A stretch of DNA of 64,000 nt from Crambe crambe (lineage: Eukaryota > Porifera > Demospongiae > Poecilosclerida > Crambeidae), in assembly GCA_963924555.1 (NCBI GenBank), contig OZ004582.1, positions 7,192,001-7,256,000 on the forward strand, given 5' to 3'. Each line of letters starts with the position of its first letter. Positions within the stretch are counted from its first letter, which is position 1. The notes beneath the pieces are model-generated. The model was not told the DNA's origin. It made no database searches and worked only from the letters and a program-made list of their open reading frames with translations. The position numbers and the translations under genes were made by a program. This document shows positions 6,726-52,403 of the stretch, piece after piece.

Positions 6726-6739
6726 GGAATGTCATTTTG

Positions 6740-24283: not shown

Positions 24284-26898
24284 ATGGCTTCACAATCACA
24301 GTTTAAAGAGTTGAGCTACGGCTCTGTTGAGATCTACATCGATGATATTCTTGGCATTGGCGCGTATGGAAAGGTCTGCAGGGCCAAGTGTGGTCAGTTA
24401 CCTTGTGCTGCCAAGCTTCTCCACGAAACTCTCTTCCAGGACAATGACCCAGGGACCCACAACCTGACCATGAAGTTCCTGCAAGAGTGCCGGTTCCTTA
24501 TCTCCATAAAACATCCAAATATTGTGCAGTGTCTAGGCACTATCAGAGACCCTGAATCGAAAAGGCCAGTTCTACTGATGGAGCTGATGGACGAGAGTCT
24601 GACCAAATTCTTAGAGAAATCCACCACTTTTGTCCCTTACCATATCCAAATCAACATTTGTTACGATGTGGCACTCGCCCTAGCTTACCTCCACTCCAAT
24701 GGCATCATCCACCGAGACCTCTCCAGCAACAATGTTCTGCTGATCAGTGCTGGTGGCAGAGCAAAGGTTACTGACTTTGGGATGTCCAAGTTTGTGGACA
24801 TGAACCCTCGCATGACCCCACTGACCCAGTGTCCAGGAACCTCAGCCTACATGCCTCCAGAGGCACTGACAGCACCACCTCGCTACTCCAGTAAAACGGA
24901 CTGCTTCTCTCTCGGAGTGCTCGCTGTACAGGTGGAAACAAGGAATTTCCCTGACCCTGGAGATGCCACAACTGTGATAAAAGATGCAAGATTCCCAACA
25001 GGACGTGCTTTATTATTTATTCCAGAAGCTGATCGCCGAAAGAAGGATATCGACTTGATAGCACCTGATCACCCCCTTCTGCCCGTCATCTTTCAATGTA
25101 TCAAGGACGAGGAGGGGGAAAGACCATTGGCCGATGAGCTGTGTGAGCGACTAGCCTCACTGAACAGGGAGTCAAGGTACACACACAGTGTGGAACAGAC
25201 TAGGGACCAGACCTCACGAGCACAGACACTGCAACTGCAGTTGGAGAGAAAAGATGAAGAGCATCAACAAGAATTAGCCTCAAAAGAAAGAGGGTTGGAG
25301 AAGAAAAATGAAGAACATCAACAAGAGTTAGCCTCGAAAGAAAGAGAGTTAGAAAGGAAAGAAAATGAAAATCAGAGGAGGTTAGATGAAAAGCGTCGAG
25401 AGTTGGCCAGAAAAGAACAAGAATGTCGTGATATACGAGAGCAGTCCAGAGTAAGAGAGAGTGAACTGACTGCAAAATTTGATCGTGAGCTGAAACTTTT
25501 AGAAGAACGACACAACAAGGAATTGGATGAAGCCAAGAAGGAAGCAGTTCACACTCATAAAGATAACACACAGCAACAAGTTCCTAGCAAATTGAAAAAT
25601 CAGCCACTGGAGGGAAAACCCAAGAATGTTCCTGTGAGTAACTACTATTGGGGACACCAATAATAGTTAGACTGGCCCAATGCCCAACCAAGACTCCCTA
25701 TGATTTACTATGCACTGTGGAACCTCTATACAATTAAAGGACAAAAAACTGGGTTGTCCTAAGTGTGTCCATGTTCCACTGTAATGGTCTTAGTGCGGTT
25801 CTAAGACATACCCTCCCACCACTAGGGATACTGATGATGTGGGGGTGGGGCACATCCTCCTATTCTGATGTGGTGTAAGGAATGCATTGATATGGTCACA
25901 TTTTTGACACCTCCAGTCTTCACCCCTTTACTTGAACATTAACAACTTCAGTATTCTCTCTTGTTTTACAGACACCTGACAAACAAAAGGGACGCAAACA
26001 AGTGTCAGCTAATCCAGCGAAACTATCATGGAGGAAAGGAAAACACCCACCAGAAACTCTATCATCAGTACAAGGAGCAGCTGTGGTCCATGGAAACACT
26101 GCATTCTTCTCTTATAACTTTAATGTATATTCATGCAATATACTTGAAGATGAGTGGACAGAGCTACAACAATGTGAATATCAAGAGACCAGTCTGGCAA
26201 TTGTTCACAACACCCTTACAACTGTTGGGGGATGCACTAGTGATCTCACACCAACCAATACCCTCCTCAGTCTCTCACAGAGTGGTTTAGGATGGATATG
26301 GAGAAAATGGAAATGGGGAAAGGGATTGCCACAAATGACAACAAAACGAATCCTTCCAGCTACTGTCACCATCACCACCCACCTGGTTGTAGCAGCAGGA
26401 AGAAAGGAATATTATAGTTGCCTATCTACAGTGGAAGTATTGGATACAGAGACTCTCCAATGGTCCATGGCAAGTAGTTTACCTCAAGACGTTGTGTATC
26501 CTAAAGTGACATTATGCAGTGGATATGTTTATCTCTCTGGTAATAGCACTGTATTCTCTTGCTCTGTGGAAGGACTCCTCCAGTCCTGCCAAATGCATCC
26601 CCACAAGCCTACCTCCATCAACAGCAGTAAGAGTGGCTCTATATGGACTAGACAAGCAGACATTCCTGTAGATTTTGGATCCAGTCTAGCAACACTAGGA
26701 GAACATGTACTAGCTATAGGAGGACAGAATTCCTTTGAACCAACAGCAAACATTCACTGTTATGACAGAGCCACTGATTCATGGAGTGTCATAGGAGAGA
26801 TGCCCACCCCACAATCACATCCTCTAGTTGCAGTCTTCCCCAGCAATGAACTGGTGGTAGTGGAAGACACTACTGAGATAGGGAAATCGGTGGCATGA
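24284..26898 (+). CDS. Protein kinase - coiled coil - Kelch protein, copy A (758 aa)
   Basis: Two exons, 24284-25633 and 25972-26898, joined in phase 0 by a GT-AG intron. Residues 15 to about 290 are a protein kinase. It has glycine loop GIGAYGKV (24-31), Lys44 in CAAKLL, Glu68, HRDLSSNN (Asp145), DFG (164-166) and the PGTSAYMPPEAL segment, so all catalytic residues are present. HRDLSSNNVLL and the overall pattern suggest a TKL-like kinase. Residues about 310-430 are a charged coiled coil built from an 18-residue repeat with EEHQQELASKERELE. The second exon encodes Kelch-like repeats (TLTTVGG, HLVVAAG, VYLSG, HVLAIGG, ELVVVED). No signal peptide is seen, so it is probably cytosolic. It starts 98 bp after the KIF9 stop. 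Substrate and pathway are unknown. Three related copies lie in the window. Confidence 0.88.
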
Positions 26899-28148
26899 CA
26901 TGCCATTATCATGTGCACCACTACCAACATCATCCTCTAACTTAAAATTGAATTTCTTTCCCCTTTTGATAAAGAGACCTTTATTGTACTGTATCATTCC
27001 ATAATGTGTTTTGTGTGTGTATTGTGCATTGTGCATTGTTATTATGAAAAGTTATGCCATCATGACTGCCCCAGCTCTGGTGGCCTTGAGTTCTACACCA
27101 GCTCCAGCAAAACCAGTGCCTCCCTGCATGCATAGGAAATAATAGAACCATTGCATCATTCACAATGACAAAGAGGGCAAAATTCTGAGAGTACAAGTGG
27201 AACCTTTACTAAAGGACTGACCTCCCAATAGAAGAAACCATAAAAATCATTTCATAGTGCTGAGACTTTTAAAAGATTCTAGTATCCCTACGACAACCAT
27301 GAAGGTGTGGTCCTTTATCAGAAATATGTCCCACTACTAAAATATCTCCTCTAATAAGGGATGTTTATTAATGAGGAGAGGATGCGTTACATAGCCAAAT
27401 GCCCCAATAATGTGAGGTGAGCTCACACTGACGATAGTGATGATGTCAATGTCTTTGAGTTTCTGTCCAGAGACGGGGCACACCATGCCATTCGTACGAA
27501 TCACCTTCTCCACACACTCCATGGTCACCATGTCACCCCTGCAGGCAGGCACACAGGGGGGAAAATAATAATGACAAAGACCAGGCTTATGATACTGTTA
27601 TATACACATACGTGGGTTTCAACACAGCACAAGGGATGGAGTTCCCAGAGTGTCCCTAGTGATGGGGCACATATAGCGAGCATTCTTCACAATGGTGGAC
27701 ATCTTCTAATGGGAGTGAACTTGACAAAAATGAGGTCCTAGTGGGAAAAGGAAATACACTGTTCTTTAAATGAGGAGGGATATTCCCTTTATAACTAGAG
27801 TCCGTTAGATAGTGAATGGTCCTTTGACCTATATATTTTATGACAGCTAGTGTGGCATACCTTAATTTTGAGTTGCTTTCCACTCATGGGACAGTATGTC
27901 TTGTTATCCTGGGAGGAGGAGGGGGTGGGGATGTAGTGAATGATACAGTAACATCGTATGTACTTGTATCATTCACTGGTGGGACTAAAAGTTATTATAC
28001 TCACTGGTTTCTTGACTTCTGTTGGTTTTGCATCAGGAGTGAGAGAGGGTATCCAAATTAGTTTTGGTACTTCAACACTTGAACTCTGACCTTTACCAGA
28101 AGGAGTGGAATGTTCTCCTATGTGGACGTACATTTACATTACAACTAT

Positions 28149-28180
<32 letters not shown>

Positions 28181-28181
28181 C
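28149..28181. repeat. (CAA)n microsatellite
   Basis: Eleven CAA units in a NOSIP pseudogene intron. The equivalent intron of the intact copy has only four such units near 36350. Confidence 0.9.
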
Positions 28182-28477
28182 TACATGCTTATCATAAAAG
28201 TTATTCTTGACACTCATGTGACTTCCTTACTTGTGCCTATGTGGATGGATATTCACTCACCAGAGACACTGCCAGTCCACCCAGCTGTAAATGGGTACCT
28301 CGGCAGCAGCCATATGATTTGCATATATATGTATGTATGCACATGTATATCCATCCTTCAGTGATGAAGGAGGGGCTGTTAGATGAGAGAGAATGCTCTT
28401 CTCTGTGTTTGAGGTCAGAGGGGGAAAATCATACAAGAACAATGTCTGTACAGGTAGAGAGAGATGGGTATTGATCA

Positions 28478-28630
28478 TAGCCTCCAGGCCTTCCTCTCAT
28501 TTGTAATCTCTCACTGAAGAAAAAGGTAACGTTTTTCTTCTTCTTCTACTACTCTTTCTCCCATAAGGTACTTTACCTTTTCCTCAGTGTGAGACTACAA
28601 ATGAGAGAGGAAGGCTTGGGAACGAGGCTA
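28478..28630. mobile_element. Foldback MITE with perfect 9-bp target duplication
   Basis: The arms TAGCCTCCAGGCCTTCCTCT and AGAGGAAGGCTTGGGAACGA-GGCTA fold back on each other. Perfect flanking repeats TATTGATCA lie at 28469-28477 and 28631-28639. It is 153 bp with no coding capacity. A close relative is at 29291-29450. Confidence 0.85.
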
Positions 28631-29290
28631 TATTGATCACTGGTAAATTTCAACAATTTAACTAGATGCCTGACCACTGAACAGGATCTCTAATGATACT
28701 GATCTTTTTCCTAAAATTATGATAATTATTTAAACATTAACACTATTCTGGGAGAATAGTAGACACAATATTATTATAATATCAAACCTCATGCCTTTTC
28801 TTCTGTTTTTCATACTCCTTCATCCTGCGGGCATCTGCAATAAGCATTAAATTGCATTTGACAGGGTTTGACTGTATAAAGTTAACTCACTGTCTTGGTG
28901 CACCCAGGCCGAACCTTTTTAAGGAGGATGTTTGATCTGCTCTCTTCTGATGGAGGATGCATTCTAGGATTGCCTCTTTGTCATGGATGATAAGAAACAC
29001 ACATCAGAGGATGAGTTCATAAGCAAGTTTTGGTCAGACATTCCATACCCTATACGATACTGGAATTTCGTTTTGGACTAACAGCTAATAAGATCTGATG
29101 TAAAAAAAAGTGTGTTTATTAAATGAAGCACCTATCAACCCACAGAGTGGTATTATCAATACCTTGATTGAGTCTAACAGTTCTGGTACCATACTCACCA
29201 GTAGCTAAAAAGGAGATGAAAAAAAGCACACTAAAATAACTAGTTGGCTATTATAAGTGTGGCGTTAAATGGTGTTCAAAAATTCTAACT

Positions 29291-29450
29291 TAGCCTCGTC
29301 CCCAGGCCTTCCTCTCTCACAGCTAGTCTCTCACGAAGAAAAGGTAAAGTATTGCACGGGAGGAAAAGAAGAAGAAGAAGAAGAAGAATTTTTACCTTTT
29401 CTTCGTGAGAGACTATACCAGTGAGAGAGGAAGGCCTGGGGACGAGGCTA
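29291..29450. mobile_element. Foldback MITE with 9-bp target duplication
   Basis: Nearly perfect arms start TAGCCTCGTCCCCAGGCCTT and end in the inverse, with an (AAG)n loop in the centre. Flanks ATTCTAACT (29282-29290) and ATTCTAACC (29451-29459) differ by one base. Same family as 28478-28630. Confidence 0.85.
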
Positions 29451-29640
29451 ATTCTAACCTGTGTCCTTCTTCTTTACATGGTAGGAATATATGGCACAGG
29501 CAGTCAAGTTCTTTCCATGTCTAGTCATGGCATAAGTGGCTAAACAAAAACACAACAGAGATGATTTAGAATTTGACATGAGTCGTCAAATCACTGGACA
29601 ATTAGATGATCTTTACTCTAAAAGGGAGTGTCTTGTATTC

Positions 29641-31137
29641 AAGTGACAAAAAGTGTTCTTTAAATGATGAGGGATATCCCCTTAAGTAGAGTCCAAGTAG
29701 TAGTGTTTTTGTTTCTGTTTTTTGGTCTCATACAGCTAGTGAATCCTGCAGAAATACCCTTATAGCAAAGGCTTTTTGATAGAATAAATGCAGCAAGTAT
29801 TCTTCCAATGAGGAGGGAAATCCAGAATTAGTGAAAATGATTCACGCTGCAATTAAAGGGAGTACGGAGTGTCCTTTGACCTATATCTATGGCAGCATAC
29901 CTCAATTCTGAACAGTAAGTCTTGTTCTGCTTATTATTCTCAGCTAACATGATAAAAATTCAATAGAATTAGTTCTCATAAAATTAGCTTATGAAACAAA
30001 CCACCATAAGCTAATTTTATGAGAATTAATTCTATTGAGTAAGTCTTGTTATTCTGGGTAGCATGAAAATGAATGCTACAGTAGGAAATGACTATTGCTC
30101 ACTGGTCATGATCTGACATACCATTTTGAGTATATGGGTCAACCAAATTTAAACATTATTGGATGACCAGTTGTTTATGACCAATAAAATCATAGATCTG
30201 ATTATCTGAACACAGCTAATATAATCATAGACGCCTGACTTATTACACCACTGTCTAGGATCGCAATGGAAGGTCCTCTGCGTCCACAATACTGAGGACA
30301 TCTCGAGACTCTCCAGGGATGTCCAATATATACCAAGTGTCCCAAGATATACTTAGGACATCCAGCGGACATCCAGCAAGTGATAGGGCATCCCAGGATC
30401 ATCTATTCAACACTCACTTTAATCTTTAATAGTAGTCACCTGTCAGTAAGCAGGTCACTTACATTAAATTGGTGACAGGTCAAGATGAAAAAAAAACCAA
30501 AAACAAAAACAAAAAAAAAAACAACCAAGAGAGATATTGGAGGTTACTATGGACTTTTCCAACACTGATGACTGGGAGCAGATAGAAACATGCTATAAAG
30601 TGCAGATGAAAGTTCTCTAACTAGCAGTGAAGTTTCTTAGATTAAATTATTGTGGATAATTTATTATAGAGCCAAGAATAAAGGCACTCAAAAATTGGTG
30701 GGTTGGGGTAATTCTGAATAATTGTTGTGGCCACACAAAGCATAAAGCTGCTTAGCCTGCTTTTCCAAATTTTCATCCCTAGTGCCACCTTCAGAGGGCT
30801 AGATCAATCGCTCATCATTATCTGATTCTGCTGACTATCTCCAGTAAGTTTTAGGAAGTTCAAAATCAAGGGGCATTATTCAGAGTTAGCTAGCTTTAGT
30901 GAACAAGAAGCTTGATCTTCAAGAGTTGTTGCAGAGATAGAGCAATAGGAGTAGTTTATGTGTATCAAGTTTGAGCTTGAAACTCCTCTTCCTTTTGAAG
31001 TAACCTCAGGTATGTATTCAGAATTACCCTGACTTACCTTAGTATCTTTACTTGACGATCTTTTCCATGTTTCCAAAACATTATCACGTGATCATCTTTT
31101 GCGAGCGAGCCCCACCCCATTTTTTTACATACAGCTA
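29641..31137. other. Intergenic between units A and B, no gene recognised
   Basis: It contains a foldback at about 29945-30045 whose arms carry AATTCAATAGAATTAGTTCT, a second member of which lies at 38866-38946. A stretch at 30225-30410 has repeated GGACATCC/GGATGTCC-like words. An A-rich CAAAAAC stretch is at 30490-30530. No exon is supported. Confidence 0.5.
29945..30045. mobile_element. Short foldback element, AATTCAATAGAATTAG family
   Basis: TTCAATAGAATTAGTTCTCA and TAAAATTAGCTTATG pair with CATAAGCTAATTTTA and TGAGAATTAATTCTATTGA. The sequence CTCAGCTAACATGATAAAAA to its left is also present beside the second copy at 38866. Confidence 0.65.
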
Positions 31138-34048
31138 ATGGCTTCACAGTTGAAAGAGTTGACCTATGGCTCTGTTGAGATCTACATCGATGATATTCTT
31201 GGCATTGGCGCGTACGGGAAGGTCTGCAGGGCCAAGTGTGGTCAGTTACCTTGTGCTGCCAAGCTTCTCCATGACACTCTCTTCCAGGACAATGACCCAG
31301 GGACTCACAACCTGACCATGAAGTTCCTGCAAGAGTGCCGGTTCCTCATCTCCATTAAACATCCTAACATTGTGCAGTGTCTAGGCACTATCAGAGATCC
31401 CGAATCGAGAAGGCCTGTTCTCCTGATGGAGATGATGGACGAGAGTCTGACCAAATTCTTAGAGAGATCCACCACTTTCATCCCTTACCATATCCAAGTC
31501 AACATCTGCTACGACGTAGGACTTGCCCTAGCCTACCTCCACTCCAATGGCATCATCCACCGAGATCTCTCCAGCAACAATGTCCTGCTGATCGGCTCAG
31601 GCAGTAGAGCAAAGGTTACCGACTTTGGGATGTCCAAGTTCGTGGATATGAACCCTCGCATGACCCCACTGACCCAGTGTCCAGGAACCTCAGCCTACAT
31701 GCCTCCAGAGGCACTGACAGCACCACCTCGCTACTCCAGTAAAATGGACTGCTTCTCTCTCGGAGTGCTTGCTATTCAGGTGGAAACAAGGAATTTCCCC
31801 AACCCTGGAGATGTCACGACTATCATGGAGGATGCAAGATTCCCAACAGGACGTGCTTTATTATTCATCCCAGAAGCCGATCGCCGAAAGAAGGACCTTG
31901 ATCTGATTACATCTGACCACTCCCTCCTGCCCATCATCCTTCAATGTATCAAGGACGAGGAGGGGGAAAGACCATCGGCCGATGAGCTGTGTGAGCGACT
32001 AACCTCACTGAAGAGGGAGTCAAGGTACACACACAGTGTGGAGCAGACTAGGGACCAGACCTCACAAGCACAGACACTACAACTGCAGTTGGAGAGGAAA
32101 GATGAAGAACATCAACAAGAGTTAGCCTCAAAGGAAAGAGAGTTGGAGAAGAAAAATGACGAACATCAGCAAGAGTTAGCCTCGAAAGAAAGAGAGCTAG
32201 AAAATGAAAATCAGAGGAGGTCAGATGAAAAGCAACGAGAGTTGGCCAGAAAAGAACAAGAATGTTGTGATATACAAGAGCAGTCCAGAGTAAGAGAGAG
32301 TGAACTGACTGCAAAATTCGATCGTGAGCTGAAACTTTTAGAAGAACGACACAAGAAGGAATTGGATGAAGCCAAGAAAGCAGTTCACACTCATAAAGAT
32401 AACACACAGCAACAAGTTCCTAGCAAGTTGAAAAATCAGCCACTGGAGGGAAAACCTAAGAATGTTCCTGTGAGTCACTATTGCAATAACGGCTAGTGGG
32501 GGGGGGGGGGGGGGGGGGAGGTGGGTTGACTAAACCCTGCCCTTGGCCTGATGCCCAACCAAGACTCCCTATGATTTATTATGTACAGTGGCACCTCTAC
32601 TCTGAAAGAGGACAACCTCTACAAAAGACTGGGTTGTCCCTAGTGTGTCCATGTTCCATTGTAGTGGTCTTAGGGCATAGTTTGTGTTATACATGCAAAA
32701 ATCAATGCTTAAAATTCAGTTTCAATATGTGCAAAGTATTATGGTCAAAATTCTAAATAAAGCAAAATCTTTAAGGTCTTAAGGTCTATGGTACAAGACA
32801 AATCTCTATTGACTTTAACCTTTGACCTATATGTAAAAATATTTTATGTGCTTTATTGACCGTATAGCCCTTTTACCTATATTATTAGTTATGTAAAGTT
32901 TAAGCATAATAGTAAGGTTTGCATTATGCCCATAATTTCATTTGAGAGAGTTGTAGCTAGCTCTATGTAGGGATGACGTGGACGACGACAAATACAAAAT
33001 TGGATTTATAGTTCCCCCACTTAGACTTAACAAAGCTACTGTGAATGATTATCCAGCCTACTAACAAAGTCCAGACCAAGTTTCAGGACCAGGGAGCTTA
33101 CCGTTTCAGAAATACAGCAAGCAAGTATATCGCTGGATTTTCTTCTCATTCTTCTTCTTCTTAGACAACCATTATGATCTCTCGAACCACTCAAGCTGCA
33201 GCTATGATTTATCCGCTCCAAATTCTACCATCTACAATCTTTTGTACTTGTCAATCCTTGAAAAAGTCGATGTAAAAGGAGACACTACAGAGCAAAGTAC
33301 TCAAGTAATTATTGGAAGCCATTTTTTTCAATAATGCGTAAAATTGATATCAAACTATAATATTGCTCAGCTCAGCTTGCTAATGACATGTGCATGCTAG
33401 ATCATAGACTACTCAATCAACTCGGGGATTTTAGATCTAATCCATCTATATACCGGTAGACTCTTCTGCATCCTCAGACTTCAAGCCTTGCACACATGAC
33501 TTGCTGATAAATAATCATTGGGTATTAGAGAACTAGTCTTCTTTCATCTATCCCTGCATACACATAGGAGAATGAACTCTATACATAAAACCATAAAACT
33601 TTAAAAGAGAGGGGAAAAAAAGACCGGGAGCAAATAAGGGGAAATATTTCTGTGAAATGAAAAAAATAGCTATATTGCTCAAAAAATAAGGAAACAAGGG
33701 TAAGGATGAAAATTGGAAATGGGATCAATCTTTGTTCTGTACATCCAGCCAACAATCCCTACATATACATCGGGTAGCTTCAGATTATAGTGCAGTAATA
33801 TACGTATATGTAGGGATTGTTGGCTGGATATGCAGAACAAACCCATTTCCATCCTTCATCCCTACCCTCTTTTTTGAGCAATGGTCATCCTTATATTTCA
33901 TGGAAATGTTTTTTTTTGTCTTGAATAGTGCAATAATTCCTTTAATTAGAGAGCTATTTCAGTATACTCTCTTGTTTAGCTACAGACACCTGACAAACAA
34001 AAGGGATGCAAACAAGTAGAAAACACCCACCAGAAACTATGTCGTTAG
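31138..34048 (+). CDS. Protein kinase - coiled coil protein, copy B (Kelch part out of frame)
   Basis: Exon 1 (31138-32469, 444 codons) encodes a full kinase with GIGAYGKV, HRDLSSNN and DFG, and an 18-residue-repeat coiled coil, close to copy A. I use the ATG at 31138 because all copies share MASQLKEL; the open frame continues upstream without another ATG. The exon-2 acceptor is conserved at 33985 (TACAG, then ACACCTGACAAACAAAAG). A 34-bp deletion near 34017 shifts the frame, and translation would stop at TAG 34046-34048, about 20 codons into the exon. The predicted product is about 464 aa without Kelch repeats. The intron (1.5 kb) is enlarged by a G21 run, a CAGTGGAACC element and a foldback. 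Confidence 0.7.
32498..32518. repeat. Poly-G run (21 G) in copy B intron
   Basis: It lies about 28 bp after the splice donor of kinase copy B and is absent from copy A. On the transcript it would form a G-rich tract near the 5' splice site. Confidence 0.9.
32585..32665. mobile_element. CAGTGGAACCTC element (TA-type MITE remnant)
   Basis: TACAGTGGCACCTCTACTCT to GTGTCCATGTTCCATTGTAG. Other members lie at about 25715-25790, 42399-42565, 46978-47130, 53475-53690 and 57780-57975. The CAGTGGAACCTC ends, often beside TA, fit a Tc1/mariner/pogo-type MITE. Confidence 0.6.
33674..33885. mobile_element. Foldback element in copy B intron
   Basis: ATCCAGCCAACAATCCCTAC pairs with GTAGGGATTGTTGGCTGGAT around a short loop. 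The outer arms continue through TGTTCTG, GGAAATGGG and ATTGCTCAAAAAA with their inverses, to about 33885. It is absent from the copy A intron. Confidence 0.75.
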
Positions 34049-34863
34049 TATGGGGAGCAGCTGTGGTCCGTGGAAACATTGCGCTCTTCTCTTGTAACTT
34101 TAATGTATATTCATACAATATATTTGAAGATGAGTGGACAAAGTTACAACAATGTGAATATCAATGGACCAGTCTGGCAATTGTTCACGACACCCTTACA
34201 ACTGTTGGGGGGTGCACTAGTGATCGCACACCAACCAATACCCTCCTCAGTCTCTCACAGAGTGGATCAGGATGGAAATGGGGAAGAAGTCTGCCACAAA
34301 TGACAACAAAACGAATCCTTCCAGCTACTGTCACCATCACCACCCACCTGGTCGTAGCAGCAGGAAGGATGAAATCAGTTGGTGGTGGCCTATCTTCAGT
34401 GGAAGTATTGGATACAGAAACTCTCCAATGGTCCATGGCAAGTAGTTTACCTCAAGACATTACATTCCCTCGAATGATATTATGCAGTGGATATGTTTAT
34501 CTCTCTTCTGGTAGCACTGTATTCTCTTGTTCTGTGGAAGGACTCGTCCAGTCCTGCCAACTGCCTACCCACAAGCGTACCTCCATCAACGGTGGCTCTA
34601 TATGGATTAGACAAGCAGACATTCCTGTATGGCGTGGATCCAGTCTAGCAACACTAGGAGAACATGTACTATCTATAGGAGGACAGAATTCCTTTATTGG
34701 CAATCCAACAGCAAGTATTCACTGTTATGATAAACCCACCAGTTCATGGAGTATGATAGGAGAAATGTCCATCCCAAAACCTGATCCTATAGTTGCAGTC
34801 ACCACCAGCAATGAACTGATGGTAGTGGGAGACACTATTGAGATAGGGAAATTGGTGGAATGA
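33986..34863 (+). pseudogene. Kelch exon of copy B, frame-shifted
   Basis: The Kelch region is fully open from 34006 (ATG) to the stop at 34861-34863, 285 codons. It shows TLTTVGG, HLVVAAGR, VEVLDTETLQW, VYLSS, HVLSIGG and ELMVVGD. Only the link to the kinase exon is lost through the 34-bp deletion. It may be a recent lesion or the exon may be translated separately from its own ATG; transcripts would decide. Confidence 0.65.
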
Positions 34864-37843: not shown

Positions 37844-40800
37844 ATGGCAGATATTATTCCTCCAAGCTCTGCTCCCCTCCCTAGCAACCCTCCTTCTGGA
37901 GATCCTCCTGCCTCTCAGAGTGCCAACGGAAGCGGAGACTCGCCTGCCATTCTTCCGATCACAGAAAAAGGACAGATATGCTATGAACGGGTGTTGCCTT
38001 CTCAGGATCACTTCTACAAAGTCCCGGATCCTCCCAAGTGCACTGGTAAAGTGAATCTATAAATAACTTAGCAGGCACCATTTGAGGAAGTCTTCAAATT
38101 TAATATTGCTAATTCACCCCTTAATAATAATAGGGACATCAGGGCTCTTTCATAGGCATAGAGAGGTTCCGCTGTATTATAGCGGATATATTATCACATA
38201 GCAGCATTGGCTACATGTGGGAAGTTGTACAGGAAACTAAAAGTACATAGAAACTGCTGCATGTGTGTGTATTCATGCAGCCATAAATGTCAACAAAGCA
38301 AGTTTCGATTCTACATGAGCATTCATTATTCTCCCTTATGTAACTAACCCTGCCCATTTAATCTTAGAACAGTTTCATTTTTTTTGGTAATCAGTTGTAA
38401 AAGTTTTATGTGAGAGATGCAGTGATCTTGCAATACAAATCCAGAACAGCAAAACCAAAATTTACATAGCCTCCTTTCAAGTAGCCCAACTCCAAAGCCA
38501 TTTGAAAGGAGGCTATATAAATTTTGGTTTTGGTGTTCTTAATTTTGAAGATCCAGTTCTTTGTAAGACAATAATCGGTCACCAGCCCCACCCTCGACTG
38601 TTTAACCACTGAGCTTGTCAGTTACATGTAGACACCATTCCATTCTAGTTCATCATAATTTGGAAATCTTCCATGTGTATGCATTTAATCCACCCCCTGA
38701 AATAAGAACACCTTTCAAACTGGATTCAAGGACATGGCATAGTTACTCACCAGTGAGGATTAATATCAATTTGCTATGATGGATATTAATTAATTAGTAG
38801 TTTTGCATATGACCTTTGACCCTAAAATTTAATACCCATAATCTGCTTATCATTCTCAGCTAACATGATAAAAATTCAATAGAATTAGTTCTCATAAAAT
38901 TATTAATTATAAGATTTTAAAATTTATGAGAACTAATTCTATTGAATACCCATAATATTGCAATACAAAGGCAAGTGTTCCTACATTGATGTACTGCTTA
39001 TAAAATCACATGATTATCATGTGATCATGTGTGACTGTCATGGGATAAAATCACATGATTGTCATATGATCACCTATCTCGTAATTATATTTTAATTTTA
39101 TTAGGTGACACGATATGTCCCCTCCCCCTGGATGCCGTGGGATACGTGAGAAAGCTGTGGAAGAAGAAGGACCTGTTTGTCTACTTTCTGACTCCACACG
39201 AGCAAGAGGACGCCATTCTTGCCTGGGCCAACGAGTGGAGTAAATACTGCGCCATCATCTTCCATCATACCAAGAAGCTCGACACCAGTGACATCAGAGT
39301 TGCTTTCAATGACTGTATGTTTCGGCTAAAGTTCTGATTTTTATGACTGATTTACTTGAGTATAGAACTCCCTAATTAGCTAGAGGGGTGGCCTCATTTC
39401 AGGGGTGGATTTATATACTCTTCAGGGATGGCCTTCATATTATGAAGTATACATTGGGTTTTTTAAAAAGTGGTCCTGAATACAGGGGTGGTCTCATTTC
39501 AGGGGTCCTGGAGTTCACTGCCAGGTTCAATTAGAAGCCTATCTCATTTATAAGCCTGGGTCATAGAAATAAAGGCCTGGCCTTGCCTTGATTAGAAGAC
39601 CGGTTTCATTTATAAGCTGAGTGCAGGAATTGGATAGAAGCCTGGGCTTGAGAATATACGGTACATGTTGATTAAAAGGAAGAAAACTTACTCTACAATG
39701 TAGAAAGTTGTAAACATTATGACTCAATATTAACTTTACAGTAACAAGACCTACCCTAATACTACATGCATCTAGTTAGTTAGGGTTATGGATCTGTCCC
39801 TGCTGCAATTATTGGATCACTATAGCTTCAATGAACCCCCTCAAATGCTGTACAGTATACTGCCTCTTTAAGTTCTGCCTAAAGAAAAACAACCAGAAAT
39901 GTAACCACCAATAATATCTATAGCAACAACAACAAGAGCAGAAAAACAACCTGAAATGTAACCACAATTACAATAACGATAGCAACAATAACAACAACAA
40001 CAACAACAACAAAACAAGACCTTAAATCAGGACACTCCTCTGGTTCCCAAAAATGTTCATGTTGAGAGCTTCCACCATTGACATAGTGATAAATAATGAA
40101 CTGCCATAGCTATAAAAACATTCTTTTTTCTTCTTTTTTTCAAGCTGGTTCATGGTCCTATATTGGGACTGATGCCTTGCACATCCCGAAGGAGTCTTTT
40201 ACGATGAATCTTGGCTTCATCGATCGTCCAACAGTCATGCACGAGTTTGGACACGCCCTGGGGCTGATCCACGAGCACCAGAGTCCCTTTAAGGGAATGT
40301 TTGAGTGGAACAAGGATGAGGTATGTGACGTGGTGGTAGGAGCTGATTCACAAAGAGGTGGGAAGATTTCAATGGATGATTCCTTTAAGCACTGGAATTG
40401 GACGTACTTTAATTTGAAGAGTCCTAGGCAGATTCAAATGTTACCCCATTTTGTTGCCCTACAATGTTCGCATTTTCCTAGTAGATACAGTGAACTCCCT
40501 CTAATCAGGACCCCTAAAATGAGGCCACCCCCGGCCCTGTATGTATTCAGGACACTTTAAATTGTCCCAATGTATGCATCATAATATAAATCCACCCCTG
40601 AAATGAGGCCACCCCTCTAATCAGGACACTTCTGCTGGCCCCAAAGGTGGCTGGATTAGAGGGAGTCCAATCCCATGAACCACAGTTTACATAAACTCTT
40701 TCCAAGTTCTTCCCATTGAGGGCAAGAGACTATCAATTCATAGTGTCTGGTAGGAAGTTAAAAGAGGAAGCTAGGGATGATGATTCATGATGGGATAGAC

Positions 40801-43437: not shown

Positions 43438-43936
43438 ATCTCAAAATAGCTACCCTATGACCTTTTGTTTTATTTTATGTTCCAACTGTGTATTTTAATG
43501 ATGTAGAATTACAAAACAAACAAACAAAAAAACATTGCTTATCATGATGATGTAATAATATGTGAGATTCTGCAGAGAGACAAGTATGTCCAATCTCAAT
43601 AATGTTCAAGTACTGCACACTAGGCCTGAGCTAATTATTCGGGAATAATTTTTTGAATAATAGGTAGCTTCTTTCAGAAATTGAATAATAGGCTCTAACT
43701 GAGACATCTTTGATGCTTCAGTACAATAATCGATGAGTTAATGAACTATGTAATAATTATGACTGTCAATCCTTTCAATGTACATAGTTAATAATTACTT
43801 GTCCCTAGCCACATTGGTCAGTCAGTCAGTCAGTGTTGTTTTGAATAATAGGGGCTGTCTGTTGAATAATAGGGAGCAAAATGTTGAATAAAATACTTGA
43901 ATAATGGCCATCTATAAATGAATAATTAGCTCAGGG
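43438..43936. other. Intergenic between metalloprotease and kinase copy C
   Basis: AT-rich and non-coding. It has repeated GAATAATAGG words between 43640 and 43925 and a short CAGT repeat at about 43826. No gene is seen. Confidence 0.5.
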
Positions 43937-45743
43937 CTACTGCACACCTATTGATATCCCTCCCACCACAATCAGTTCACTATCAGGGGAGACTACAGTT
44001 AGGACCGTATGTCGTGGGGTGGGCATCTCTCCTATGACACTCCATGAATCAGTGGCTCTGTCATAACAGTGAATGTTTGCTGTTAAATCATGGTATCCTC
44101 CTATAGCTAGTACACGTTCTCCTAGTGTTGCTAGACTGGATCCCCATACAGGAATGTCTGCTTGTCTAGTCCATATAGAGCCACTCTTACTGCTGTTGAT
44201 GGAGGTAGGCTTGTGCGGAGGCAGTTGGCAGGACTGGAGGAGTCCTTCCACAGAACAAGAGAATACAATGCTATGACTATCAGAGAGATAAACATTTCCA
44301 CTGCAAAATGTCATTTGAGGGAATGCAATGTCTTGAGGTAAACTACTTGCCATGGACCATTGGAGAGTCTCTGTGTCCAACACTTCCACTGAAGATAGGT
44401 TATTTTGTTTTTCCTGCTGCTACGACCAGGTGGGTGGTGATGGTGACAGTAGCTGGAAGGATTCGTTTCGTCATCATTGATGGCAACCCTTTCCCCCATT
44501 TCCATCCTGATCCACTCTGTGAGAGACTGAGGAGGGTATTGGTTGGTGTGCGATCACTAGTGCATCCCCCAACAGTTGTAAGGGTGTCGTGAACAATTGC
44601 TAGACTGGTCTCTTGATATTCACATTGTAGCTTTGTCCACTCGTCTTCAAGTATAATGTATGAATATACATTAAAGTCATGAGAGAAGAATGCAGTGTTT
44701 CCATGAACCACAGCTGCTCCTTTTACTGATATTAGAGTTGTTGGTGTCTGTTTTCCTTTTCTCCATGATAGTTTCATTTGCCCACCTGGTATTTGATCAG
44801 ATTTTCCCTTTTCCTTTTGTAGCTTATTTCCAATTTTTGCTACACCATGTGTGTACCTTGACTCCCTCTTCAGTGAGGCTAGTCGCTCACACAGCTCATC
44901 AGCCGATGGTCTTTCTCCCTCTTTGTCCCTGATACATTGAAAGATGATGGGTAGGAGGGGGTGGTCGGGTGCAAACATGTCGATATCCTTCTTTCGGCGA
45001 TCAGCTTCTGGAATGAACACAAATGCATGTCCTGTTGGGAATCTTGCATCCTCTATGATAGTTGTGGCATCTCCAGGGTCAGGGAAATTCCTTGTTTCCA
45101 TCTGAATAGCAAGCACTCCGAGAGAGAAGCAGTCCATTTTATTGGAATATTGAGGTGGTATTGTCAGTGCCTCTGGAGGCATGTAGGCTGAGGTTCCTGG
45201 ACACTGGGTCAGTGGGGTCATGCGAGGGTTCATGTCTACAAACTTGGACATCCCAAAGTCGGTAACCTTTGCTCTACTGCCTGAGCCGATCAGCAGGACA
45301 TTGTTGCTGGAGAGGTCTCGGTGGATGATGCCATTGGAGTGGAGGTAGGCTACAGCAAGTGCCACATCATAGCAGATGTTGACTTGGATGTGGTAAGGGA
45401 CAAAAGTGGTGGATCTCTCTAAGAATTTGGTCAGGCTCTCGTCCATCAGCTCCATCAGGAGAACTGGCCTTCTTGATTCAGGATCTCTGATAGTGCCTAG
45501 ACACTGCACGATGTTCGGATGTTTTATGGAGATGAGGAACCGGCACTCTTGCAGGAACTTCATGGTCAGGTTGTGAGTCCCTGGGTCATTGTCTTGGAAG
45601 AGAGTGTCATGGAGAAGCTTGGCAGCACAAGGTAACTGACCACACTTGGCCCTGCAGACCTTTCCGTAAGAGCCAATACCAAGAATATCATCAATGTAGA
45701 TCTCAACAGAGCCGTAGGTAGGCTCTTTCAACTGAGAAGCCAT
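43937..45743 (-). pseudogene. Kinase-Kelch copy C: intron and coiled coil lost, Kelch frame-shifted
   Basis: The minus strand starts at the conserved MASQLKE (45743). The kinase is intact (GIGSYGKV, HRDLSSNN, DFG). Directly after the SRYTHGV segment the coiled coil is missing, and the frame passes via AKIGNKLQKEKGKSDQIPGG into MKLSWRKGK and the Kelch part without an intron. Compared with copy D, the coiled-coil repeats and the exon 1/intron/exon 2 junction are both deleted in frame. The Kelch frame breaks at 44400 (AAGKTK, stop) and resumes in another frame as VEVLDTETLQW to GGISIGVQ, stop at 43937. The N-terminal ORF could still make a kinase with half a Kelch domain (about 447 aa). I rate it a probable pseudogene. 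Confidence 0.7.
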
Positions 45744-45929
45744 TAGGGGGTGGCTCATCTTGGGATACCACGTGACACTTTTATATAGTTAATAATTTGT
45801 GCGCTTATAAAAAAATTATTTCACAGGCAGGCTGTGCTATGTAATATTCTAGTCGACGGTATTGAACACCACAAAAAAAATTTTTTTCACCATGCATTCT
45901 CAGTTGTGTATTATCCATAACACTTGACT

Positions 45930-46560
45930 ACCTACCAGTTCATTGCTGGGGAAATATACTGCTAAGACGTTATATTGTGGGGTGGGCATCTCTCCTATCA
46001 CACTCCATGAATTGGTGGTTCTATCCACCAGAACCTAAGTCTAGAGGAACCCTTGCTTGGCTAGTCCATATAGAGCCACTAGCTCTCACTGCTGTTTGGA
46101 GGTAGTCTTGTGGGGATGCAGGAGTTCTTCCACAGAACAAGAGAATACAGTGCATTCAACATCAGAGAGATAAACATATCCACTGCATAATACCATTTGA
46201 GGAGACCCAGCATCTCTAGGTAAACTACTTGTCATGGACCATTGGCGAGTCTCTGTATCCAATACTTCCACTGCAGACAGGCCATGGATGGATGTCTTTT
46301 TTCCTGCTGCTACGACCAGGTGGGTGGTGATGGTGACAGTGGCTGGAAGGATTCGTTCTGTCAGCATTGGAGGTAGGTATCTTTCCCATTTCCATCCTGA
46401 TCCACTCTGTGAGAGACTGCATGAGGAGAATATTGGTTGGTGTTCCATAAGTAGTGTGTTCCCCAACAGTTGTAAGGGTGTCATGAAGAATTGCCAGGCT
46501 GATTGCTTGATATTCACTTTGTTTGTGTTTATTTCAACCTGAGTCACGTAGGCCACCTCC
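45930..46560 (-). pseudogene. Truncated stand-alone Kelch gene fragment (duplicate of 51432-52403)
   Basis: Minus-strand homology to the Kelch gene at 51432-52403: QSGSGWKWERYLPPMLTERI, TVTITTHLVVAAGKKTS, VEVLDTETRQWSMTSSLPRD, YVYLSDVECTVFSCSVEE. The first repeats are missing, the frame is shifted near 46440 and 46110, and most of the LGEHVLAIGG part is deleted between about 46090 and 46030. It is non-functional. Confidence 0.8.
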
Positions 46561-46666
46561 TTATAACAGCTGGCCCAAAGGTGAGCATTATAACCAGGTT
46601 CCACTGTATAATTATATTGTATGTACATGCAGCTATGCAATGTACACTCATATGCACAGTACTCAC

Positions 46667-46889
46667 TGGAAGTCAAACTGCTGTTGATGAAAGAAGCAGA
46701 CTCCCTGTCATCCTCCATCAGACTCTGCATGTGCAAGGGGGTGGGGTTGGATGAGACCAGGATGGGTGAATGAGGACGGACTTGCAGGAACTCTGAATGA
46801 TGATCTATAGAGACATGCATCCGTGACTTGTCCCCTACCACTTTCAGCCTCTTACTAAGTCTGCGCACAATCTTTCCATGGAACTGAGA
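46667..46889 (-). pseudogene. Duplicate of liprin-alpha exon (223 bp, frame open)
   Basis: Same length (223 bp) and frame as the liprin exon at 53132-53354, with the flanking AG (TTTAG before TCTCAG) and the GTGAGT donor both kept. It encodes [20 protein letters not shown] and [13 protein letters not shown] with about ten substitutions. It lies downstream of the liprin gene on the same strand, so an alternative or readthrough splice to it is conceivable. It is classed as a pseudo-exon until transcripts show use. Confidence 0.7.
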
Positions 46890-47336
46890 CTAAAGGAGAG
46901 AAGCAAAAGCAAGTGAATTTTACTGTATGTGTGGGTGGCAGTGTGGCTGCATAGGGCAGAGCTTTAGATCTGTCATGTACAGTGGAACCTCCCACTCTCC
47001 AAAAGATGACAAACTTCTCAATAATGGAGAATCTATGAGTACAGTTATACACAAAATGACCTCTAAAAGAGGACAGTACAAATGAAAGGTTGGGTCCCTA
47101 AGCGTATTCCTTATTCAGAGGTTCCACTCTTCATAATTAGGCTTTCCAGGATGTGTCCTGATTACAATGTCCTGATTATAGAGGTGCCCTTAATGAAGGA
47201 TGGATTAATGGGAAACAGTAGATTTTTTTAAAATTTGTCCAACCATTTTCCTGTTGGTATGACACCAGATACTGAAACTGACACTGGAGTGTCAGGTCAA
47301 CTTCAATCTGTTATTGGCCCTTCATGCTATTTTACC

Positions 47337-48697
47337 TATAAATAGGTTATCGAGTCACTCAATGGACCACTCAACTACTGGGACTTGGATCGCATAGAGA
47401 ACATGTTCAAACGGTACAAGAGAAAGGATCTGGATGGTACCCTGTATGATGCCAAGAGCATCATGCACTACAGGTGGATACACTTACATAGAATATAAGA
47501 GTCCGATATCAGGGTATCATCTAGGACTTGGGGTAGAAATTTTCCAGGGAGGTTGAGCACTGTATCATTCATTGTATGTAGAGACCAGAAACCCATACAT
47601 ACGTATTCTTGGGGGGGGGGGGGGGGGGGGGGGGGGGAGGGGGGGAGGGGAGGGGGAGAGGGGGAAGCTTCCTCTGCATCCCCTCCTTAGATGAAACCAT
47701 ACAGGATTCACTGGTAAAGAAATTGGTAAGATATCCATCAGTGGGCACAGAAGAGTTTAGGGATTTTGTATTTTATACAGTTTCCCTTGTGAGTGGATCA
47801 AAGGTTACGGGTATCCTGATGGGATTGATCGTAACACCGAGCTCTCGGAGCGCTGGTGGCTGCAATAACGAAGTGGCTGCATTATGCAAGTGATCACTAG
47901 GATCACTTGATCTGGTCCCAAAGAGTGAGATATATGATTGTATTTCTATTCATTACATGCAGGTTCTCCTGGCACTGGTAGCTAGAGTCTTCCCCCTCGG
48001 TCGCTGTTGAACCTGAAGTTCCCAGACATACCGAACCCGTCACTTCTCTCCCTCAGGTGGTTCAGTTCACGACATACAAGTTTTCCAACCTCACAGAGGT
48101 ACACCGATAGGAGTAGTATACTGAGGAATAATATATAAATAAAGTAACAATGCATTGATCATAGGCTTTTGGCTATCATACTGTGCAATAGCTAATAATA
48201 ATAATACTCACCTGGAACTGAACAGTTTATCCATGCAAAGGCTAACACAATGTATGTGAATTCAGTTTTTTCTAATATAATACTGCTGCACACGCTCATT
48301 CGACTTGATCTGTGATCTGGAATGGGAGTGGAATTGTTGCTCCGATTCCATACCAGTGAGAAGGTTGCTACACCGTACACCATCGAGACTCACGGGGATT
48401 GTGACATGATCTTGGCTCTCCTGGGAACCGACAACTTCACCAAACAGATCATGTGAGTTTAGATATCATTGGGTGACTTAAATAGTCACCTGCTTATCCT
48501 GCTAGTACCTAAGAGTTAGTTGGAGTGCTTACCCTTTACCTAATAACATCACTAATTATAGTGTTGATGATGACAGTGGAGATGATAAAAATGCCAAGAT
48601 TTCAGCCCAGCTACTCCCTGATAGAGACTACTATGTGCAGATGCAAACATTTGACCCCAAAGGCGGGAAATTCGAATTCTCAATAACCTCTTGGTAG
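47337..48697 (+). pseudogene. Metalloprotease 3' exons, duplicated fragment
   Basis: Copies of exons 4-8 of the gene at 37844-43437. Exon 4 (47346-47473) has lost one codon. Exon 5 is cut after the TELSER segment. Exon 6 has an inserted CTAG and lost bases. Exon 7 lacks its start and part of the KVRPR region. Exon 8 (48562-48697) is intact to the TAG. Exons 1-3, with the HExxH zinc motif, are absent, so it cannot encode a protease. Confidence 0.85.
47611..47670. repeat. Poly-G tract (27 G, then G-rich)
   Basis: Twenty-seven G followed by GGAGGGG-like words, in the intron of the metalloprotease fragment. The equivalent intron at about 41890-41910 has only a short G run. The overlapping poly-Gly open frame is an artefact. 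Confidence 0.9.
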
Positions 48698-48914
48698 ATC
48701 TCAAAATAGCTACCCTATGACCATTTGTTTTGTTTAATAATTTTTGTTCCAACTTAATAATATATGTAGCTATTCTAATAATGTAAAATTACAAAAAAAA
48801 CAACAACATTGATGATGTAATAATTTGCTAGATTCTGCAGAGCAAGACTGCAACAAACAAACAAACAAACAAACAAATAAACAAATCAAACATAGCAGTA
48901 GCTGCAGGACATAA

Positions 48915-51384
48915 TCATTTTACTACACGTCCAATCTCAGTAATGTTACAGTCTTGTATACCTATCGATATCCCTCCCACCACAATCAGTTCACTATCAG
49001 GGGAGACTACCGTTAGGGCCCTATGTCGTGGGGTGGGCATCTCTCCCATGACACTCCATGAATCAGTGGCTTTGTCATAACAGTGAATGTTTGCTGTTGG
49101 ATTGTTAATGGAATGCTCTCCTCCTATAGCTAGTACATGTTCTCCTAGTGTTTCTAGACTGGATCCAAACAATACAGGAATGTCTGCTTGTATAGTCCAT
49201 ATAGAGCCACTCTTACTGGAGGTAGGCTTGTGGGGAGGCAGTTGACAGGACTGGAAGAGTCCTTCCACAGAACAAGAGAATATAGTGTTATCATTAGAGA
49301 GATAAACATATCCACTGCATAGTATCATTTGAGGGAATGTAATGTCTTGAGGTAAACTACTTGCCATGGACCATAGGAGAGTCTCTGTATCCAATACTTC
49401 CACTGTAGATAGGCCGTTAAATATGTCCTTTCTTCCTGCTGCTACAACCAGGTGGGTGGTGATGGTGACAGTAGCTGGAAGGATTCGTTTTGTTGTCATT
49501 TGTGGCAGACTTCTTCCCCATTTCCATCTTGATCCACTCTGTGAGAGACTGAGGAGGGTATTGGTTTGTGTGCAATTACTAGTACACCCCCCAACAGTTG
49601 TAAGGGTGTCGTGAACAATTGCCAGACTGGTCTCTTGATATTCACATTGTTGTAGCTTTGTCCACTCATCTTCAAGTATCTTGTATGAATATACATTAAA
49701 GTTATAAGAGAAGAATGCAGTGTTTCCATGGACAACAGCTGCTCCCGATACTAATGACATAGTTTCTGGTGGCTGTTTTCCTTTCCTCCATGATAGTTTC
49801 ATTCGTCCAGCTGGTATTAGATCAGATCGTTCCTTTTCCTTTTGAGTGTCAGTTACCTAAAGAAAATTGAAAAAAATTCATAACGAGGGTCAATTCCCAA
49901 TTGACTTAAAATATAATGTTAGTGTATATTCATACTTAGATCAAATTAGCTGTAAGTACAGCTTGAATTAAGTATTAACATGAAAATGAACCTATGATGA
50001 GACAGGAATTTAGTGCATGCAATTACATGTCATATTTCATTGGGTAAAATAATTTATAATAAATTAATCTTTACCCCATGAAATTAACCCACTGTACCAA
50101 GGAATTTTATATACTACACCAACTTACAGGAACACTGTTGACTGCAGACAATGATTTACTAGTTAGACGCTGAGAATCAGCATCTTCAGTGATCTGTAGT
50201 TTATTTTCAATTTTTGCAGCAAGTTCCTCTTTTCTGGCCAACTCTTTTTGTAATTCTTCTCCTTTTCTTTGTAATTCTTGTCGAAGCTCTTTGCTCTCTT
50301 GATTTTTTCTCTCTAACTCTCTTACTTTCGAGGCTAACTCTTGTTGATATTCTTCATTTATCCTCTTCAATTCTTGCTTTTCTCTTTCTTTTGAGGCTAA
50401 CTCTTGTTGATGTTCTTCATCTTTCCTCTCCAACAGCAGTTGCAGTGTCTGCGCTCGTGAGGTCTGGTCCCTAGTCTGCTCCACACTGTGTGTGTACCTT
50501 GACTCCCTCTTCAGTGAGCCTAGTCGCCCACACAGCTCATCGGCTGATGGTCTTTCCCCCTCCTTGTCCTTGATACATTGAAGGATGATGGGTAGGAGGG
50601 GGTGATCGGATGTAATCAGATCAAGGTCCTTCTTTCGGCGATCAGCTTCTGGGATGAATAATAAAGCACGTCCTGTTGGGAATCTTGCATCTTCCATGAT
50701 AGTTGTGGCATCTCCAGGGTTGGGGAAATTCTTCGTTTCCATCTGAATAGTCAGCACTCCGAGAGAGAAGCAGTCCATTTTATTGGAATATTGAGGCGGT
50801 GCTGTCAGTGCCTCTGGAGGCATGTAGGTTGAGGTTCCTGGACACTGGGTCAGTGGGGTCATGCGAGGGTTCATGTCCACGAACTTGGACATCCCAAAGT
50901 CAGTAACCTTTGCTCTGCTGCCGGAGCCGATCAGCAGGACATTGTTGCTGGAGAGGTCTCGGTGGATGATGCCATTGGAGTGGAGGTAGGCTAGGGCGAG
51001 TGCTACATCGTAGCAGATGTTGACTTGAATGTGGTAAGGGACAAAAGTGGTGGATCTCTCTAGGAGTTTGGTCAGACTCTCGTCCATCAGCTCCATCAGA
51101 AGAACTGGCCTTCTCGATTCAGGATCTCTGATAGTGCCTAGACACTGCACAATGTTCGGATGTTTTATGGAGACGAGGAACCGGCACTCTTGCAGGAACT
51201 TCATGGTCAGGTTGTGAGTCCCTGGGTCATTGTCTTGGAAGAGAGTGTCATGGAGAAGCTTGGCAGCACAAGGTAACTGACCACACTTGGCCCTGCAGAC
51301 CTTTCCATAAGAGCCGATGCCAAGAATATCATCAATGTAGATCTCAACCGAACCGTAGCTCAACTCTTTCAACTGAGAAGCCAT
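48915..51384 (-). CDS. Protein kinase - coiled coil - Kelch protein, copy D (732 aa)
   Basis: Minus-strand exons 51384-50128 (419 codons) and 49856-48915 (314 codons with stop) join in phase 0 across a 271-bp GT-AG intron. Kinase: GIGSYGKV, CAAKLL, HRDLSSNN, DFG, CPGTSTYMPPEAL, all catalytic residues present. The coiled coil differs from copies A and B: the EEHQQELASKERE repeat is followed by QESKELRQELQRKGEELQKE and AAKIENKLQ. The Kelch exon begins VTDTQKEKERSDLIPAGRMK and carries TLTTVGG, HLVVAAGR, VYLSND, HVLAIGG and ELIVVGG. This is the only fully intact minus-strand copy. The start is 47 bp from the stop of the upstream Kelch gene, so its promoter must overlap that gene's 3' end. Confidence 0.88.
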
Positions 51385-51431
51385 TACAGCAAAATTAGGG
51401 CGTGGGTTATATCACGCGCGCGACACTGACA

Positions 51432-52403
51432 TTAGTTAACTCGTGCGCATGCGCAATCGAGCATGTAATGATGTTCATCCATGTTTCCTATTGCATTCTC
51501 AGTGGTGTCATTATCCATAATGCCTGACCCTCCCACCACTACAAGTTCATTGCTGGGGAAATATACCCCTAAGACGTTATATCGTGGGGTGGGCATCTCT
51601 CCTATCACACTCCATGAATTGGTGGCTCTATCATAACAGTGTATTTTAGCTGTTGGATAGAGATCCTCTCCTCCTATGGCTAGTACATGTTCTCCCAGTG
51701 TTACTAAACCGCATCCACCAGAGCCTAAGTCTAGAGGAATCCTTGCTTGGCTAGTCCAAATAGAGCCACTCTCACTACTGTTGATGGAGGTAGGCTTGTG
51801 GGGAGGCAGTTGGCAGGACTGGAGGAGTCCTTCCACAGAACAAGAGAATATAGTGCATTCAACATCAGAGAGATAAACATATCCACTGCATAATACCATT
51901 TGAGGAGACCCAATATCTCTAGGTAAACTACTTGCCATGGACCATTGGCGAGTCTCTGTATCCAATACTTCCACTGTAGATAGGCCATGGATTGATGTCT
52001 TTTGTCCTGCTGCTACAACCAGGTGGGTGGTGATGGTGACAGTAGCTGGAAGGATTCGTTCTGTCAGCATTGGAGGTAGGTATCTTTCCCATTTCCATCC
52101 TGATCCACTCTGTGAGAGACTGAGGAGAATATTGGTTGGTGTTCCATAAGTAGTGCGTCCCCCAACAGTTGTAAGGGTGTCATGAAGAATTGCCAGGCTG
52201 ATTGCTTGATATTCACATTGTTGTAATTCTGTCCACTTGTCTTCATGTACTTTATATGAATATACATCACACCCATGTGAGAAGAAAGCAGTGTTTCCAT
52301 GGAGCACAGCTGCTCCCCATACTGAGTTCAAAGATACAGGTGCTGGTTTTCCTTTTCTCCAAGACAGTTTCATTGGCACAGCTGACATAGTGTCACAGGC
52401 CAT
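51432..52403 (-). CDS. Stand-alone Kelch-repeat protein (323 aa)
   Basis: A single open frame on the minus strand. I start at the ATG at 52403 (MACDTMSAVPMKLSWRKGKP), because the text from KLSWRKGK onward matches the start of the Kelch exon in the kinase genes; the frame is open 18 codons further up. Repeats include TLTTVGGRTTYG, HLVVAAGQKTS, VEVLDTETRQW, VYLSDVECTIFSCS, HVLAIGGEDLYP and ELVVVGGS. It ends with an unrelated tail MLDCACARVN. No kinase exon is found upstream: the next sequence belongs to liprin-alpha. It may be a derived single-domain paralogue able to compete for the same partners as the kinase-linked Kelch domains (inference). Confidence 0.75.
   Translation of the reverse strand: MACDTMSAVPMKLSWRKGKPAPVSLNSVWGAAVLHGNTAFFSHGCDVYSYKVHEDKWTELQQCEYQAISLAILHDTLTTVGGRTTYGTPTNILLSLSQSGSGWKWERYLPPMLTERILPATVTITTHLVVAAGQKTSIHGLSTVEVLDTETRQWSMASSLPRDIGSPQMVLCSGYVYLSDVECTIFSCSVEGLLQSCQLPPHKPTSINSSESGSIWTSQARIPLDLGSGGCGLVTLGEHVLAIGGEDLYPTAKIHCYDRATNSWSVIGEMPTPRYNVLGVYFPSNELVVVGGSGIMDNDTTENAIGNMDEHHYMLDCACARVN

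Follow-up and report, generated by a model that had tools for sequence, protein, structure and literature searches.

Which kind of system is encoded by a sponge locus in which one protein kinase exon after another is followed by Kelch sequence? In this work, the question was addressed for a stretch of Crambe crambe DNA of 64,000 nt (contig OZ004582.1, positions 7,192,001 to 7,256,000), the whole of which is referred to here as the window. An earlier sequence-only reading of it had described four genes joining a kinase, a coiled coil and Kelch repeats. Within the window, the exons of both domains were examined by six-frame open reading frames (ORFs), Pfam scans and tblastn; the kinase exon of copy 1 and the Kelch exon of copy 4 served as queries against the genome from which the window comes (143 Mb, 119 contigs). 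The kinase-linker-Kelch order proved to be real and expanded. Beyond the earlier claims, about 100 candidate pairs were found in the genome, and in a close clade of the family the Kelch face appears to be diversifying while the kinase is conserved. We hypothesize, with slightly better than even confidence, that the family is a germline-encoded, lineage-expanded repertoire of cytosolic recognition kinases.

Kinase exons start at 24284(+), 31138(+), 45743(-) and 51384(-), all four matching Pfam Pkinase (E <= 2e-40), and Kelch sequence follows each of them by tblastn within the window. As to the four copies claimed, four kinase exons each with Kelch are indeed present, but only copies 1 and 4, at 24284(+) and 51384(-), are intact and keep an open kinase-linker-Kelch frame; the frame of copy 2 is lost and copy 3 is frameshifted. 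The parts are as follows.

24284..25633, plus strand: copy 1 exon 1, TKL-like kinase (about residues 1-300) and charged linker (to residue 450); ORF, Pfam Pkinase E 2e-40, catalytic motifs, donor GTGAGT at 25634 in phase 0
25634..25971, plus strand: copy 1 predicted intron, 338 nt, GT-AG, phase 0
25972..26898, plus strand: copy 1 exon 2, Kelch propeller; Pfam Kelch_1 E 5e-17, in frame with exon 1
31138..32469, plus strand: copy 2 exon 1, kinase and linker, open (ORF, Pfam), donor GTGAGT at 32470
33986..34863, plus strand: copy 2 Kelch exon, probably decaying, lacking 34 nt close to its start relative to copy 1
44403..45743, minus strand: copy 3, kinase directly joined to the first half of Kelch in a single ORF, with neither linker nor intron
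43940..44404, minus strand: copy 3, remaining Kelch in another frame (frameshift)
50128..51384, minus strand: copy 4 exon 1, kinase and charged linker, 419 aa
49857..50127, minus strand: copy 4 predicted intron, 271 nt, GT-AG, phase 0
48915..49856, minus strand: copy 4 exon 2, Kelch propeller modelled with six blades, hypervariable residues in its DA/BC loops

In copies 1 and 4, the predicted junction has the form GTRAGT...AG with donor and acceptor both in phase 0, and predicted splicing yields stop-free products of 758 aa and 732 aa, respectively. The placing of the domains on separate exons holds for these two copies but not for copy 3, an intron-less single ORF (45743-44403) that terminates mid-propeller, the Kelch sequence resuming in a different frame (44404-43940); this frame break may be an assembly error. 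Copy 2 has the donor and acceptor of copy 1, but because the start of its Kelch exon carries the 34-nt deletion, the Kelch frame (33994-34863) is lost from the canonical junction, and in-frame joins were returned by the script only with non-GTRAGT donors. Its Kelch framework is under weak constraint, with a ratio of nonsynonymous to synonymous substitution rates (dN/dS) of 0.87.

The genome searches gave at least 97 kinase and at least 129 Kelch matches with these two queries. Both parts were present in 18 pairs among 60 loci, and in 17 of them (copy 3 lay outside this test) the neighbouring kinase and Kelch exons join in frame, in phase 0, from a GTRAGT donor, which was the one chosen where a junction offered several phase-compatible options; the exception is copy 2 of the window. 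Furthermore, kinase and Kelch share a single uninterrupted ORF in four genes: L066 (764 aa) and L067 (712 aa), which contain kinase, linker and Kelch, and L069 and L070, whose Kelch parts are more divergent. An unspliced intron would make kinase and Kelch two proteins; the junctions in frame under predicted splicing and the single-ORF versions argue for one. That the two are separate neighbouring genes was thereby ruled out for the family and is retained for copy 2. Upstream of seemingly free-standing Kelch loci on contigs C13, C9 and C12, a kinase exon and charged, helical-looking exons were found in all three sampled, as candidate joins.

From the 157 kinase places and 161 Kelch places of four genome searches, a census counted 103 pairs in which a Kelch place follows a kinase place in the same orientation and no more than 5 kb away, and 93 of these pairs lie on six contigs. 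Only two Kelch places have a kinase neighbour on the opposite strand, and the kinase-then-Kelch order is therefore beyond chance. The kinase entries of the census comprised 90 of the 97 rows of the first search and the top 67 of 151 of the second, with fragments and weaker rows omitted, so that some pairs are missed; the Kelch entries comprised 117 of the 129 rows of the first search and 44 further places. The census also omits the genes on C16 and C8 with divergent Kelch, some of its pairs are fragments, and the copy-4 kinase was paired by the script with a Kelch pseudogene, which leaves the total unchanged. By comparing the kinase and Kelch distance matrices, a correlation (r) of 0.95 was obtained over 17 genes and of 0.59 over 12 close genes, and the two domains appear to be inherited together. 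An array of 15 Kelch matches was also observed at C6:8392956-8675667; no recognisable partner was found in the 2.7 kb upstream of the single Kelch sampled there.

Selection differs strongly between the two domains. Among 12 close paralogues, the pairwise dN/dS rose from 0.15 in the kinase through 0.35 in the linker to 0.74-0.78 in Kelch, where it exceeded 1 in 13 of the 66 pairs. Codon models were fitted with a purpose-written script (GY94, F3x4, IQ-TREE topology). For the kinase, positive selection was not significant (likelihood-ratio test statistic, LRT, 4.3; P 0.12). For Kelch, a set of 14 sequences and 306 codons, which includes copy 2 and the stand-alone Kelch described below, gave an LRT of 251 with 10.7% of codons at an omega of 6.7, and the 12 intact copies alone gave 235 with 4% of codons at an omega of 17. 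The Kelch halves, each on its own tree, gave 116 and 120, and the C13 array, represented by five different Kelch exons, gave 89; in 15 simulated data sets lacking positive selection, the statistic never exceeded 2.07. The strands and the AB/CD loops of Kelch have a dN/dS of about 0.5. In an AlphaFold2 (AF2) model, the copy 4 Kelch is predicted to be a six-bladed propeller (predicted local distance difference test score, pLDDT, 91.2), which also has structural matches, and 20 of the 23 hypervariable columns fall in the DA/BC loops of the modelled propeller. This face is the substrate side in known Kelch domains, in the accessible accounts of KEAP1-NRF2 and KLHL20-DAPK1. In a second, independent branch (eight sequences, with L074 and L075 nearly identical), the variable positions lie on the same Kelch face. 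Taken from these comparisons, the Kelch domain seems to diversify under strong positive selection while the kinase is conserved.

The kinase was said to be catalytically complete, and this was borne out by the Pfam matches of the four window copies and by the VAIK lysine, HRD and DFG motifs, which all 17 intact gene models across the genome carry; one of these models, at C3:6224313, has an unusual glycine loop. In the second-branch kinases (L071-L073), HRD is kept and DMG or DLG replaces DFG in all three sampled. The closest solved kinases, among the best 60 of 2572 matches, are TNNI3K (81 bits) and then TAK1 (72 bits), with IRAK4, CTR1 and BIK1 also among these 60; placement in the TKL group by best match is soft, because CDK2 chains trail TNNI3K by only about 10 bits and are level with TAK1. 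The NCBIfam matches were all far below the cut-off. No obvious signal peptide was seen by eye at the start of the copy-1 protein, for which reason a cytosolic protein is assumed.

The linker contains 34-47% D, E, K and R over 17 genes. Its best 28-aa heptad contrast was matched by 7 to 124 of 200 shuffles in these genes (124 for copy 1 and 17 for copy 4), and its whole-length periodicity was reached by no more than 8 of 500 shuffles in 4 of the 17; in the periodicity and composition analysis, the stretch taken for C3:6500169 included part of the kinase. The AF2 model of L067, a related single-ORF protein, has a single long helix in the linker. It is a charged and probably helical segment, which may be a coiled coil or a single helix; the coiled coil of the sequence-only reading has weak support, the heptad signal being weak and mixed.

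The same phase-0 kinase-linker exon type also precedes exons other than Kelch. At two C3 loci, L024 and L025 (7.05-7.06 Mb), it is followed by an AIG1/GIMAP-like GTPase exon (E 3e-13, above the cut-off), and at L026 and L027 (C10 and C6) by a Cul7-domain exon (PF11515, E about 5e-18), with matching phases in each case. The architecture is therefore modular, as had been proposed. The Cul7-type group has three further kinases (L028, L032, L033), and for these no Cul7 exon was found within 1.5 kb. A PCMT-like exon joined to the L022 kinase (C3:7438411) was ruled out, because the acceptor phases mismatch; this kinase-linker exon sits between two methyltransferase-like exons (PCMT-like by eye) and is possibly a kinase-linker-only derivative. 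A further cluster of AIG1-like matches lies at C3:8.59-8.61 Mb. At L080 (C5:1491500-1493600), two SH2-domain exons (PF00017, E 4e-14 and 6e-10) precede a Kelch exon in the C5 array (1.41-1.65 Mb), so an SH2-SH2-Kelch family is possible in the same genome.

The stand-alone Kelch paralogue that had been noticed in the window is likewise present, together with a decayed relative.

51432..52403, minus strand: stand-alone Kelch ORF with constrained framework (ORF, Pfam, tblastn)
45933..46530, minus strand: Kelch pseudogene, a duplicate of the stand-alone Kelch plus a piece of a neighbouring exon

For the stand-alone Kelch, no partner kinase is in view, because the kinase query matched just the four kinase exons in the window. 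Its dN/dS is 0.31 in the framework and 1.03 in the face. With such a framework value it is probably not debris, and it fits a putative retained decoy or competitor. By eye, the ORF (52403-51432) and the decayed copy (46530-45933) both follow copies of one short exon piece, so the Kelch block was duplicated in tandem. A neighbouring gene has a SAM-domain exon (PF07647), and a piece of an exon downstream of it was carried along to 46.9 kb when the Kelch block was copied; the places concerned are 54257-54087, 53354-53133 and 46889-46660 on the minus strand.

In the proposed repertoire of recognition kinases, the Kelch face of every paralogue would bind a different partner. Partner binding, perhaps together with linker-mediated clustering, would activate the conserved kinase or recruit and localise it, and the kinase would signal to one common downstream target or output. 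The exchange of the Kelch exon for an AIG1-GTPase or Cul7-type exon, as well as the stand-alone Kelch, may provide other outputs or decoys. The likeliest driver would be a need to recognise non-self, or microbial or viral proteins that change quickly. It would be a further step, to which we give somewhat less than an even chance, to see here a new class of germline-diversified cytosolic receptor, with about 100 kinase-linker-Kelch genes of differing faces and a shared kinase, serving innate recognition or allorecognition independently of NLRs and Toll-like receptors.

Several points weigh against the repertoire hypothesis. It is drawn from genome sequence comparison and predicted structure, and one genome was covered, so "lineage-specific" is putative. 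Nothing in the window points by name to an immune pathway, and kinase and Kelch pairings are in print for other organisms, as brief mentions (PMC2939887, PMC1266030). The selection test covers just 5 to 14 paralogues with our own script, and gene conversion in tandem arrays could inflate it, although both Kelch halves and the independent branch are concordant. The C13 set has few sequences, the neutral class takes up 75% of its codons, and weak overall constraint contributes there. Linker-driven clustering rests on the weak and mixed heptad signal, and in the full-length AF2 model of L067 (predicted template modelling score, pTM, 0.52) the kinase part has low confidence and the packing of kinase and Kelch is not readable.

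The alternative that survives best is one of targeted kinases, in which the Kelch face is an adaptor choosing host substrates and its diversification stems from sub-functionalised recognition in housekeeping, in reproduction or between self and non-self, and not from anti-microbial defence. We consider it unlikely. Known Kelch faces do select specific host peptides in the accessible accounts of KEAP1-NRF2 and KLHL20-DAPK1, and the joint inheritance of kinase and Kelch would suit it. On the other hand, large copy number with pseudogenes, as is found here, is commoner in arms-race families. Moreover, the KLHL loops are conserved within each family in the available text of PMC10146909, whereas the loops here differ among close paralogues, with omega above 1 at face codons. 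Much less probable is a young tandem family that drifts or is under relaxed constraint, with a weakly selected Kelch. It would account for the two broken copies of the four in the window, the Kelch pseudogene, the poorly constrained framework of copy 2 and the large neutral class of the C13 set. However, the strands and AB/CD loops stay at about 0.5 against an omega of 6.7 at face codons, the LRT of 251 (235 for the intact copies alone) compares with a simulated maximum of 2.07, and the independent branch varies on the same face. Slightly less probable again is an artefact, in which gene conversion, favoured by tandem arrays, or misalignment of loops that contain gaps mimics positive selection and the joined models are merely neighbouring genes, given the single uninterrupted ORFs, the phase-0 junction conserved in 17 of 18 pairs, the concordant halves on their own trees and a signal confined to one face of the fold, unlike what conversion would be expected to give.

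Elsewhere in the window, the region 1280-10581 (+) contains three ORFs (309-346 aa) that are related to one another, begin with hydrophobic residues and have many cysteines in common, and a shorter relative of them lies at 3381; two of these ORFs were scanned and gave no Pfam family above the cut-off, and they are possibly a secreted tandem family. ORFs overlapping on both strands at 12042-12886 stem from a short tandem DNA repeat and are probably no gene. At 40093-40560 (+) there is a weak match to an astacin-type metalloprotease (PF01400, 24.8 bits; cut-off 22.5).

Among known proteins, the six-bladed propeller is shared with the BTB-Kelch (KLHL) adaptors of Cullin-3 (KEAP1, KLHL12, KLHL20, NS1-BP), but these have N-terminal BTB/BACK domains in the place that the kinase occupies here, and when the kinase and Kelch exons of the window and the proteins L066 and L067 were scanned against Pfam, neither BTB nor BACK was found. 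A kinase plus a protein-binding domain resembles the layouts of TNNI3K or RIPK. TNNI3K and TAK1, of the TKL group to which IRAK4- and RIPK-type signalling kinases also belong, are the nearest solved relatives of this kinase by best match, but the C-terminal domain here is Kelch, and the Pfam scan of the window exons contained no death, CARD or ankyrin domain. The pairing of kinase and Kelch is not unique, because a few Entamoeba histolytica tyrosine kinases (PMC2939887) and one Leishmania major kinase (PMC1266030) are reported with Kelch, and Kelch is drawn among the domains of Eph-like proteins in animal relatives (PMC6993872); with these the comparison is by the brief mentions in the papers, not by sequence, order or copy number. 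In the available text on choanoflagellate fusions of G protein-coupled receptors with TKL kinases (PMC12716839), Kelch is not among the domains, and in that of two sponge papers (PMC6208332, PMC11000336) Kelch genes appear among expression changes. The accessible portion of the open-licence literature yielded neither an account of an expanded kinase-Kelch family undergoing diversification nor a standard named family with this order, in keeping with the sequence-only reading.

Germline-diversified recognition families include the NLRs, plant receptor kinases and the nematode F-box and MATH-BTB adaptors. These are likewise large, with a conserved signalling part and a fast-evolving recognition surface, but their domains differ: NACHT, NB-ARC, leucine-rich repeats (LRRs), F-box and MATH were all absent from the scanned proteins (window exons, L066, L067 and further loci). 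As in those families, selection here appears to be focused on the binding surface, with the signalling part conserved. We place the kinase-linker-Kelch set with them, and there is a real chance that it is a new class. How early animals discern microbes or non-self inside the cell is an open question, which this family makes testable. It is tractable, since the selected residues are identified, KEAP1 and its relatives have made the fold and its way of binding known, and one exon encodes the Kelch domain, which could thus be expressed by itself as bait. If the hypothesis is true, the Kelch propeller would be a diversified recognition scaffold, a role usually tied to LRRs, immunoglobulin domains and lectins.

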